A DNA stretch of 22,321 bases from a virus. The translations under genes were made by a program, and so were the position numbers. Below, in pieces: positions 17,664 through 20,819 of the stretch (position 1 is its first letter; each line of letters begins with the position of its first letter). The DNA is taken from positions 1 through 22,321 of IMG/VR virus record IMGVR_UViG_3300020009_000048. One strand, 5' to 3'. The notes beneath the pieces were generated by a model. That model was not told where the DNA came from. It did no database searches and saw nothing but the letters and a program-made list of their open reading frames with translations.

Positions 17664-17715
17664 TTGCGGCGCCAGGCAACGCAAGTGCGCCGCTCCTAAT
17701 GGGGCGGCGCACTTG
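17648..17715 (+). terminator. Tandem hairpins ending the late operon
   Basis: The first hairpin (17648-17677) overlaps the endolysin stop: GCCTGGCG pairs with CGCCAGGC, and CGCA with TGCG inside. The second (17682-17693 with 17704-17715) is a perfect 12-bp stem with loop TCCTAATGGG. Only weakly T-containing sequence follows, so they may act together, or mainly protect the 3' end of the late transcript. Confidence 0.6.
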
Positions 17716-17717
17716 TG

Positions 17718-17749
17718 TGTAGAAAAGTTGTAGAAAAGGTGTAGATTGA
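17718..17749 (+). repeat. Three 11-bp-spaced direct repeats
   Basis: TGTAGAAAAG occurs at 17718 and 17729, and a degenerate TGTAGATTGA at 17740. The strict 11-bp period puts the copies on one face of the helix. They lie about 335-370 bp from the attachment core, so arm-type integrase sites or an operator are possible. The role is unknown. Confidence 0.6.
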
Positions 17750-17769
17750 CGCGATGCACAAATTAGCAC

Positions 17770-17798
17770 TTGCGCTGGCAATCGGAGCATGCTATTCT
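17770..17798 (+). promoter_or_regulatory. Promoter of the structured RNA
   Basis: TTGCGC (17770-17775) is followed after 17 bp by TATTCT (17793-17798), preceded by TGC, an extended -10. Predicted initiation is near 17805. It has no protein gene downstream before a strong terminator. Confidence 0.5.
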
Positions 17799-17804
17799 TT
17801 CCGC

Positions 17805-17943
17805 ACAAAAGAAGTGACCAGCACGACGCTTGCGACGCCTGCTGGTCATGGCAGCACCAGAAGGACACTGGTGAATGCGAGGGGCATTCTAGCATAACCC
17901 ACGCGCGCACCGTCAAACGGTGCGCGCGCTTTGTTTTGTTTCA
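17805..17943 (+). ncRNA. Candidate structured small RNA, about 138 nt
   Basis: Between the promoter above and the terminator at 17902-17943 there is no convincing protein gene, but there are three further hairpins in a row. Hairpin 1: TGACCAGCA (17815-17823) with TGCTGGTCA (17840-17848), a perfect 9-bp stem. Hairpin 2: CACCAG (17855-17860) with CTGGTG (17868-17873), loop AAGGACA. Hairpin 3: GAATGC (17873-17878) with GCATTC (17884-17889), purine loop. The loop of hairpin 2 holds an AAGGA that looks like a Shine-Dalgarno core. The layout (promoter, stems, strong terminator) is that of an independently transcribed small RNA. No known family was recognised. The RNA could regulate lysis or integration genes beside it; function is not shown. 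Confidence 0.5.
17902..17943 (+). terminator. Very strong intrinsic terminator
   Basis: CGCGCGCACCGT (17902-17913) and ACGGTGCGCGCG (17917-17928) form a perfect 12-bp stem with loop CAA, followed by CTTTGTTTTGTTT. The T tract is only on the plus-strand side, so it stops rightward transcription, including that of the candidate RNA and any late readthrough. Confidence 0.9.
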
Positions 17944-17974
17944 AGCAACGTTTGGCGACGGAAAGCGAAAACGA

Positions 17975-18017
17975 AAAGAGCCCGGGGCACAGGTTTGGCC
18001 GCCCGCCCGGACTCTTT
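17975..18017. terminator. Bidirectional terminator between late genes and integrase
   Basis: AAAGAG-C-CCGGG (17975-17986) pairs with CCCGG-A-CTCTTT (18006-18017), leaving one mismatch. A-rich sequence precedes and T-rich sequence follows, so the stem has a U tract in either direction. On the minus strand it would end the integrase transcript after the attachment core. Confidence 0.65.
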
Positions 18018-18083
18018 CCGTTTCCCTACGCACCTTAACAACCGAAGCAGTAAAGGTGAAAGCGACAGTTGGCGCCGCCGCTA

Positions 18084-18128
18084 TGGTGACCCACCTAGGA
18101 CTTGAACCTAGAACCCAATGATTAAGAG
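18084..18128 (-). other. attP: Phage attachment core: 3' half of tRNA-Lys(CTT)
   Basis: Read on the minus strand this is the 3' part of a tRNA: anticodon loop CTCTTAA (18128-18122), stem arm TCATT (18121-18117), five-base variable region, T stem-loop CTAGG/TTCAAGT/CCTAG (18111-18095), acceptor arm GTGGGTC (18094-18088), discriminator A and an encoded CCA (18087-18084). The 5' side is missing: CGAGC in place of a strand complementary to TCATT. Such 3'-half copies next to an integrase are the sequence shared between attP and a tRNA attB; integration rebuilds the host gene. The integrase 3' end is 33 bases away. Confidence 0.85.
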
Positions 18129-18170
18129 GCTCGCGGCAGACTTAAACGGATGACTGTAAATCATTGGGTT
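18112..18170. repeat. 12-bp inverted repeat spanning the attachment region
   Basis: AACCCAATGATT (18112-18123) is repeated in inverse at 18159-18170, 35 bases apart. The left copy is part of the tRNA anticodon arm; the right copy overlaps the integrase stop codon. Within the right copy, ATGA-CTGTAAA-TCAT (18150-18164) mimics a second anticodon arm with a 7-base loop, facing the first. Confidence 0.7.
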
Positions 18171-19093
18171 GACGAATTGCCCTTGCCTTGCAGCCGCTCC
18201 ATGGCGCTGTTGTAGGCGTTGCGGACGGCTGGCGCGAGCGTGAATGCGTAGTACATTTGCGTGACCTGGGTGCTGGTGTGACCCATTGCGGCGGCAATGT
18301 CGGAGAGATCGGCGCCGTTGTTGCGCATGGCCATGGCGAAGCCGTGGCGGAAAGCGTGGGCGCTGAATTGCTGAATCCCGGCCTGTTGGCAGCGCGCTTT
18401 CAGCATACTGCGCACACCTTCGGGTGTAAAGCGGGGGCCGGCATGGTAGAGCGGGCCACGCGAGGCCAGCAGCAGCGCCGGCGCATTGCTGGGCCGAGTG
18501 TAGAGATAGGCCAGCAAATCATGGCGAATATCAATCGTAGTGGGAACCATGCGCGGTTTGGCGCCCTTGCCACGTCGCACAAAGATTTCCAGCCGCTGCA
18601 CGTCAATGTCCGCGACCTGCAGCGCGCACAATTCCCCAAGCCGTAAACCCGAAAAGTAGAGCAACCGAAGAATCAAACGGTCCCGCTGGTCAATCCAGCG
18701 GTCCCCATTGATCGCGCCCAGGATAGCGCGCAAATCAGCGTATGCAACATAACGGGGGCGCTCTTTGGGGATGCGCGGCGGCTTGACCCAATGCACCGGA
18801 TTTTGTTCACGCGTGATAAAGCGGCGGCGCTCTGCGAAGTTGAGCACGGCCGCCAGCGCACGGTAGCGGGCATGCACCGTACGCGGTTTGAGACCAAGTC
18901 GCTGCTGGGCGGCAATAAAGGATTCGAGCACGCTTTCGGTGGGGAGGAGATCGGGGACGCTGAACCGTTCCCGCCACGCCTGGAAGATGCGCAGTTGTGA
19001 CGCATACCAGGCGATGGTGGCGGCGGAAAGGCCAGCGGCGGTGACTGACACCTGGTGCAGGTGCACCAGGGCGGTAAAGCTGTTTTGTTGCAT
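18161..19093 (-). CDS. int: Tyrosine recombinase integrase
   Basis: The 310-residue protein catalyses site-specific recombination between attP and the tRNA attB. An N-terminal SAM-like core-binding domain (about 8-100) has the pattern TIAWYASQLRIFQAWRERF. The catalytic domain has R151 (FSGLRLGELCAL), K176 (RRGKGAKPR), H246 and R249 (HAFRHGF), H272 (MGHTSTQ) and a tyrosine nucleophile at Y281 or Y282 (MYYAFT). All expected residues are present, so it should be active. The start at 19093 has GGAG about 6 bases upstream; the longer open frame above it runs through a dyad and a G7 run and is unlikely. The last codons overlap the attachment-region inverted repeat, so integrase and attP form one cassette. 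No excisionase was recognised nearby. Confidence 0.95.
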   Translation of the reverse strand: MQQNSFTALVHLHQVSVTAAGLSAATIAWYASQLRIFQAWRERFSVPDLLPTESVLESFIAAQQRLGLKPRTVHARYRALAAVLNFAERRRFITREQNPVHWVKPPRIPKERPRYVAYADLRAILGAINGDRWIDQRDRLILRLLYFSGLRLGELCALQVADIDVQRLEIFVRRGKGAKPRMVPTTIDIRHDLLAYLYTRPSNAPALLLASRGPLYHAGPRFTPEGVRSMLKARCQQAGIQQFSAHAFRHGFAMAMRNNGADLSDIAAAMGHTSTQVTQMYYAFTLAPAVRNAYNSAMERLQGKGNSSTQ

Positions 19094-19108: not shown

Positions 19109-19204
19109 ACCACCAATCGGTGGGGGGGTATGGTGGCAATCTGGTACGCCCGGAATGCGGACCAGTGTACAACATAGAGGCTGCACGCGCCACAGCGTGC
19201 AGCC
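19109..19204. promoter_or_regulatory. Divergent control region with three dyads
   Basis: The 148-bp gap between the divergent integrase and the rightward early genes holds three symmetrical elements. CCACC-AATC-GGTGG lies at 19109-19122, followed by a run of seven G. CTGGTACGC (19141-19149) faces GCGGACCAG (19157-19165) with 8 of 9 bases symmetrical and a 7-bp centre. GGCTGCACGC (19179-19188) pairs perfectly with GCGTGCAGCC (19195-19204) and lacks a T tract, so it is not an intrinsic terminator. These are candidate operators for a repressor or excisionase, the last possibly an RNA hairpin ahead of the first early gene. No clear -35/-10 pair was found in either direction. Confidence 0.5.
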
Positions 19205-19241
19205 CCACGAATAGCAATTTGATCGACGTAAGGAGCCGAGA

Positions 19242-20013: not shown

Positions 20014-20819
20014 GCATGACTCATGTAGCGTGGGTGCGCGACTTTTCGCGCACTCACGGCGGCGCCCGCCTGGTGCTGTGGGCATTGGCAAGCAGGGCTG
20101 ACGACAAGTCTAACGAGGCATTCCCTTCAGTTACCACACTTGCGAAGGATGCTGGATTGCACCGGACCAATGTTTTCCTTGCCGTGGCCGAGCTTGAAGA
20201 GCTGCAAGAAATTACATGCGAACGGCGTAAGGGACGATCTACGATATACACGTTGACAATGGGCGAACCAGTAGTGCAGCACTACCAGTCGCAGAGCGCT
20301 ACCAGTAGTGCAGCACTACCAGTAGCGCAGCACTACCCGTCGCAAAACACTACAAAACTAGTAGCGCTGCACTACCAAACTAGTAGCGCAGCACTACCCA
20401 TAAAGTCTTTTAAAGATTATAAAGGGGAAAAGATAGATATATCCCCTGATGTTGATTTGGTTTCGGACGAAACGGCGCAAACAACACAAACCGACGATGA
20501 CGCCTACAAGCGCCAATCGCCTACCTGGGTGGACCCCAATCCGATCACGGCCGGCGCTTTGTGGCATGCAATCCAAACCGAGTGCGGGCTATCGCTGACC
20601 AATGGCGTACTGCACCACGTTTTGCAAACGCAAGCGATTGCCCTTGACGGCGATGCGCTGCGCGTCCGGGTGACTTCGATTTTTGCATTTGAGGCGTTGA
20701 AGGGGGCGCGCTTGCAGGCAGCTATGGACCGTTACGCGCATTCGCTTGCGGGCCGGCCGTTGACGGTCCGTTTCGAGCTGCAGGAGCATGAGTCGGAACT
20801 TTTACGGGTAAACCGTTGA
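20010..20819 (+). CDS. Replication initiator: winged helix plus DnaA domain I-like C-terminus
   Basis: The product has 269 residues from the ATG at 20010, which overlaps the previous stop and has AAAGGGGG upstream; a start at 19992 would add six residues. Residues 1 to about 85 form an HTH_36-type winged helix (GARLVLWALASRAD, FPSVTTLAKDAGLHRTN, LQEITCERRKGRSTIYTL) as in many phage replisome organisers. Residues about 88-130 are a low-complexity segment coded by a DNA repeat array (see the iterons). Residues about 180-265 resemble the N-terminal domain of DnaA, with ALDGDALRVRVTSIFAFEAL and then GRPLTVRFEL, which in DnaA contacts the helicase. It probably binds its own gene at the iterons and loads helicase, as lambda O does with P. 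No separate helicase or loader gene was seen in the window. Confidence 0.85.
   Translation: MSMTHVAWVRDFSRTHGGARLVLWALASRADDKSNEAFPSVTTLAKDAGLHRTNVFLAVAELEELQEITCERRKGRSTIYTLTMGEPVVQHYQSQSATSSAALPVAQHYPSQNTTKLVALHYQTSSAALPIKSFKDYKGEKIDISPDVDLVSDETAQTTQTDDDAYKRQSPTWVDPNPITAGALWHAIQTECGLSLTNGVLHHVLQTQAIALDGDALRVRVTSIFAFEALKGARLQAAMDRYAHSLAGRPLTVRFELQEHESELLRVNR
20271..20397 (+). repeat. ori: Iteron array, probable replication origin, inside the initiator gene
   Basis: Seven 15-base units start at 20271, 20288, 20305, 20322, 20339, 20361 and 20383, spaced 17,17,17,17,22,22. Five are GTAGYGCWGCACTAC (20271, 20305, 20322, 20361, 20383), a near-perfect palindrome with one central base. Two at 20288 and 20339 (GTCGCAGAGCGCTAC, GTCGCAAAACACTAC) are degenerate. 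In lambda the origin is likewise a set of palindromic iterons inside the O gene, followed by AT-rich DNA, as here. The array is fully translated, giving the repeated SAALPV/QHY peptide. Confidence 0.85.
20399..20456 (+). other. AT-rich stretch after the iterons (candidate unwinding element)
   Basis: This is the most AT-rich part of the window, with TTTTAAAGATTATAAA and AGATAGATATAT blocks in an otherwise G+C-rich sequence. It begins 2 bases after the last iteron and is in frame within the initiator gene. The place and composition fit a DNA unwinding element. Confidence 0.65.

Follow-up and report, generated by a model that had tools for sequence, protein, structure and literature searches.

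We analysed the virus record IMGVR_UViG_3300020009_000048 from IMG/VR over its full 22,321 bases, referred to here as the window. The window encodes a large terminase subunit, a portal, a protease-capsid reading frame and a replication-initiation-like gene; the last of these contains an imperfect direct repeat at 20267-20399 (79% over ~80 nt), possibly a set of origin repeats. Protein searches with the terminase and the integrase found no near kin, and all matches were below 60% identity. A capsid search returned 28 loci, five of which (L011-L015) have at least 84% identity. Because all five come from a single metagenome, IMG 3300020020, they suggest a local phage population. Between the gene for an M23 endolysin and the convergent gene for a tyrosine integrase (int), a preliminary description had placed a phage small RNA next to the attachment site. 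The features of this region are collected in Table 1.

Table 1. Features between the endolysin and integrase genes, with substitutions relative to the one related contig where segments were counted
Feature	Position	Strand	Remarks
M23 endolysin gene	ends 17663	+	
Hairpin after endolysin gene	17679..17718	+	18-nt arms, 89% complementary; U-poor tail; probable end of lysis operon
Repeat stretch	17714-17753		4/40 sites differ from relative
11-bp direct repeats TGTAGAAAAGT/TGTAGAAAAGG and partial third	17718..17748	+	same repeat flanks insert in relative
47-codon ATG frame	17754..17897	+	overlaps predicted RNA, stops just before terminator; probably no gene
Promoter-like site TTGCGC-17-TATTCT, TG before -10	17770..17798	+	both hexamers identical in relative; match alone at chance level
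Predicted small RNA, ~131 nt	17805..17935	+	start inferred from -10 site
Stem-loop 1	17814..17849	+	arms 17815-17823/17840-17848 perfect; pair 17823/17840 A-U here, G-C in relative
Stem-loop 2, CACCAG-AAGGACA-CTGGTG	17855..17873	+	6 bp; loop AAGGACA exposed
Stem-loop 3, GAATGC-GAGGG-GCATTC	17873..17889	+	-7.8 kcal/mol alone; competes with extension of stem-loop 2
Intrinsic terminator	17902..17937	+	perfect 12-bp stem 17902-17928, 3-nt loop, T-rich tail
Tail and spacer	17929-17969		3/41 sites differ from relative
Long hairpin, U-rich 3' arm on minus strand	17967..18025	-	minus strand of 17945-18030: -41.0 kcal/mol
Hairpin (segment compared)	17970-18026		0/57 sites differ from relative
Spacer	18027-18083		5/57 sites differ from relative
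tRNA-Lys(CTT) 3' part, anticodon loop to CCA, 46 nt, attP core	18084..18129	-	annotated phage tRNA-Lys matches; 0/46 sites differ from relative
Tyrosine integrase gene (int)	18161..19093	-	convergent with predicted RNA; PF00589

The sequence of the claimed promoter is present as it had been placed, with TTGCGC starting at 17770, a 17-nt spacer and TATTCT at 17793-17798, and its hexamers are conserved. However, the match is weak and at chance level. It scores 3/6 and 4/6 (7/12) with an extended -10, and extended -10 matches of equal quality occur 12 times in the window versus 5.9 +/- 2.4 times in 30 shuffles. A standard promoter scan of the window (9/12) did not list the site. A transcript from this site would begin near 17805 and stop near 17935, and this predicted length comes close to the ~138 nt originally proposed.

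All three of the hairpins described earlier lie at their places, but in the minimum-energy fold an extension of stem-loop 2 displaces the third. The perfect terminator was fully borne out and surpasses every other of its kind in the window. Its stem is followed by CTTTGTTTTG, and when we scanned for perfect 9-16-bp stems with loops of 3-8 and with 6 or more T among the 10 bases that follow, it was the only place on the + strand; the minus strand has one, at 19204. The fold of 17800-17943 has a z-score of -4.16, with 0/200 shuffles as good. Much of this value is due to the terminator, and the fold of 17800-17898 without it reaches a z of only -2.05. The AAGGACA loop of stem-loop 2 is among the most accessible parts of the predicted RNA, and its AAGGA, being unpaired, is therefore exposed and not occluded.

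Could the same stretch encode a protein? The preliminary description saw no credible protein gene here. That judgement is fair but was incomplete, as a 47-codon frame, with atypical codon usage, is present. A gene for this 47-residue product with a short hydrophobic N-terminus would explain why the ATG frame is intact in both phages, why two of its three substitutions are synonymous and why its stop codon immediately precedes the terminator stem. However, its codon score of -0.28 per codon falls below 98% of 217 same-length windows from phage genes, its GC3 is 51% versus 81%, and a frame as long or longer arose in 157/2000 shuffles. By eye we saw no Shine-Dalgarno sequence at the usual distance from 17754, and Pfam, PHROG and phage tblastn searches with the product gave no match. 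The signal-like part of the product spans only ~12 residues, which is short for an export signal. We therefore consider this protein gene very improbable. We discarded a second frame, of 110 codons at 17789-18121, as a coding sequence: the relative has a 1-nt insertion after 17916 that throws it out of register, and each of the two changes inside the RNA is non-synonymous in it.

The placement of the unit beside attP is well supported, since the 46-nt tRNA-Lys(CTT) 3' half, whose anticodon was read by eye, adjoins the tyrosine integrase gene. A tRNA search of the window found none, as expected for half a tRNA, and an exact 33-mer of the half was absent from the genome contigs scanned for a host tRNA. 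Some attachment regions in tRNA genes carry a tRNA 3' half and a terminator; our literature search for attP regions with both parts returned none. The window resembles this arrangement, with a hairpin on the minus strand that begins ~58 nt downstream of the end of the tRNA half. This hairpin is probably the terminator for the tRNA-Lys gene, which integration would rebuild with a 3' half and terminator supplied by the phage. Unlike such regions, the window additionally has a conserved unit for a predicted + strand RNA beyond the hairpin. Because the conserved block also holds the tRNA half and the tRNA-terminating hairpin, the RNA unit lies inside a conserved attachment module.

Several smaller repeats and hairpins lie around int. 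A 17-nt inverted repeat (88%; 18112-18128/18154-18170) has one arm in the region of the tRNA anticodon stem and the other at the 3' end of int, and its AATCATTGGGTT is kept in the relative. Opposite window position 18143, the relative (L004:7870-7930) has ~45 extra bases with a second copy of a AAACGGATGAC-like repeat, a candidate integrase arm site. Upstream of int, a strong minus-strand hairpin at 19177-19206 differs from the relative at paired positions (CACGC/GCGTG here, CATGC/GCATG there).

The relative, IMGVR_UViG_3300020020_000201, is the only other contig with the region found in endolysin and integrase searches, and the integrase alignment search returned that contig alone. Aligned flanking segments are 78-82% identical between the two phages, versus 95% for 17714-18154. 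Fourfold sites differ at 51/159 in int, 47/232 in the endolysin gene and 118/500 in a tail gene (20-32%), and the intergenic stretch between int and 19242 differs at 29/142 sites. Over 17714-18129, by comparison, there are 15/416 substitutions and one 1-nt insertion, in the terminator loop (p 4e-9 versus the int-19242 stretch). On these fourfold-site and intergenic counts, the block is far more alike than anything else compared.

Within the block, only 3/175 sites of the RNA unit (17754-17928) differ (Fisher p 2e-8 versus the int-19242 stretch): one in the promoter spacer, and two that are the partners of base pair 17823/17840. The predicted RNA up to 17928 thus carries only two substitutions, both halves of one pair that changes from A-U to G-C and keeps stem 1. 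The chance that two random substitutions would hit partners is 0.005. Covariation has no statistical power here because there are only two sequences, and 235/500 shuffles scored as high in the control. The compensatory pair could also come from mutation templated by the inverted repeat.

How much of this conservation reflects selection on an RNA? Coexisting phages may simply have exchanged the attP module recently. The edges of the similar block, a TGTGTGTAGAAAAG repeat and the tRNA anticodon loop, are both natural exchange points, and the single metagenome behind the five closest capsid matches points the same way. The spacers, too, differ at only 12/138 sites. They are more alike than the int-19242 intergenic DNA (29/142; p 0.007), which suggests that recent exchange, perhaps of the entire module, accounts for some of the conservation. 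However, exchange with no selection as RNA does not predict an uneven spread of substitutions. The elements carry 3/278 versus 12/138 in the spacers, with p 2e-4, or 0.003 when a cluster at 18047-18051 is counted as one event, both with bounds drawn after seeing the alignment; bound-free tests are weak, with p 0.38 when the longest run is taken and p 0.027 when the three longest are. Nor would mere exchange lead one to expect a compensatory pair in stem 1. As the sole cause of the conservation, we regard recent exchange as quite unlikely.

The lysis side of the region offers a second comparison between the two phages. Over 17664-17732, 9/69 sites are substituted in the relative, with paired stem changes seen by eye; in the hairpin after the endolysin gene, CAAGTGCGCC/GGCGCACTTG here corresponds to CAAAAGCGCC/GGCGCTTTTG there. 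The direct repeats at 17718-17748 may serve as integrase arm sites or mark a point of recombination; these TGTAGAAAAG repeats lie ~360 bp from the attP core, which is far for arm sites. In the relative, two minus-strand frames of ~1 kb (L004:6487-7355), flanked by TGTGTGTAGAAAAG copies, lie between the endolysin gene and the RNA unit. One is Rz-spanin-like (PHROG 214, E 4e-4) and the other is lipoprotein-like by eye; both are absent at the corresponding place in the window. In the relative the unit, INDEPENDENCE from the lysis operon, is intact behind the opposing genes. Expression of a + strand RNA there would therefore most simply need its own promoter. This separation fits an independent transcription unit and, of the indirect arguments, speaks most strongly for a separate gene.

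It also bears on whether there is a separate gene at all. The hairpins and terminator could instead be a backstop at the end of the late lysis transcript that insulates attP, the tRNA-Lys gene and int, with conservation coming from the module as a whole. The terminator is strong and the promoter weak, the unit is on the same strand as the endolysin gene, the U-poor tail of the post-endolysin hairpin makes read-through plausible, and the terminator is oriented toward attP. However, the sequence from promoter to terminator shows almost the same degree of conservation as the terminator itself, a backstop has no need of the conserved hairpins 1-3, and ~1 kb of opposing genes parts the endolysin gene from the unit in the relative. 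On balance we find a mere backstop doubtful, but less so than exchange alone.

Homologues of the unit were sought widely. At the gathering score, Rfam gave 0 matches in the window, and permissive matches to CC1840, BSnc119 and ar35 were dismissed as resemblances of GC-rich hairpins far below the cut-offs. Exact-pattern scans of viral contigs for parts of the unit found no homologue beyond the known relative; patterns taken from the tRNA half, from the unit's 5' part and from the second hairpin each recovered that contig alone. A scan of genome contigs for a part of the unit gave nothing. A viral scan with the pattern of stem-loop 2 had 3 loci, two of which (L006 and L008) were rejected as chance, having nothing else in common with the window. 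In the whole records of 27 of the 28 capsid-search loci (all except L023), the conserved block was found in the known relative alone; its absence elsewhere means little because many of these records are fragments. Searches of phage and plasmid DNA gave short matches only, the best of them to the tRNA half. A likeness of the upstream TTAGCACTTGC to the CIRCE heat-shock element was dropped as partial.

Targets of the RNA were sought within the phage. The preliminary description had suggested looking for antisense matches to the starts of int, holin or endolysin. RNA-RNA interaction predictions with 29 phage start regions gave no extended complementarity and nothing above noise (best z -2.49). 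The longest Watson-Crick match to the predicted RNA elsewhere in the window is 12 nt, on the minus strand inside the capsid gene. A CsrA-type role for the exposed AAGGA loop was also considered as a possibility, though the RNA has one such loop only.

Known phage RNAs offer two points of comparison. The review PMC12197685 names Esr41, VpdS and PreS among the trans-acting small RNAs of prophages. The candidate is alike in being a short phage RNA, with a promoter-like site, hairpins and an intrinsic terminator; it differs in being known from sequence alone and in having no Rfam match at the gathering score. The same review names OOP, sar, aQ and PAK_P4as15 as antisense phage RNAs, the last associated with an endolysin gene (PMC12197685). 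The candidate is likewise a small phage RNA. Unlike these antisense RNAs as they are presented there, its unit is intergenic and has no extended complementarity to the phage start regions.

We tentatively favor a small RNA gene of the phage that has a promoter and an intrinsic terminator of its own and forms part of a compact attachment module, and we rank it above each of the alternatives. The original proposal of a phage small RNA stands in its anatomy, but the promoter is weak and no target was found. What favors an independent gene is conservation in the one relative, the compensatory pair in stem 1 and the separation from the lysis operon there. The RNA gene would sit where accessory genes related to lysogeny are placed, after the lysis operon and before attP, and the module would consist of this gene, the convergent tRNA terminator and the tRNA-Lys 3' half. 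Folding of the transcript would leave hairpin loops exposed, notably AAGGACA. Judging by the class of element, we infer that the RNA would act in trans in the prophage state, and pairing with mRNAs of the host or the phage is the most likely means. The strong terminator may also prevent + strand transcripts from extending antisense into attP, the rebuilt tRNA-Lys gene and int.

What would a phage gain from an RNA gene at this place? More speculatively, and with about as little confidence as we give to exchange alone, the attachment module may include a gene for a small regulatory RNA that moves together with attP and the tRNA terminator. It would be exchanged as a cassette among phages using the tRNA-Lys site and would tune integration, excision or lysogen physiology. 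Judged from its sequence, the candidate is a well-formed prediction and probably a small RNA gene. To our knowledge, most of the prophage small RNAs described so far come from a small number of model hosts. A candidate joined to an attachment module in an uncultured phage would broaden the picture of these RNAs, and it would offer a simple test case of whether attP cassettes carry regulatory RNAs.
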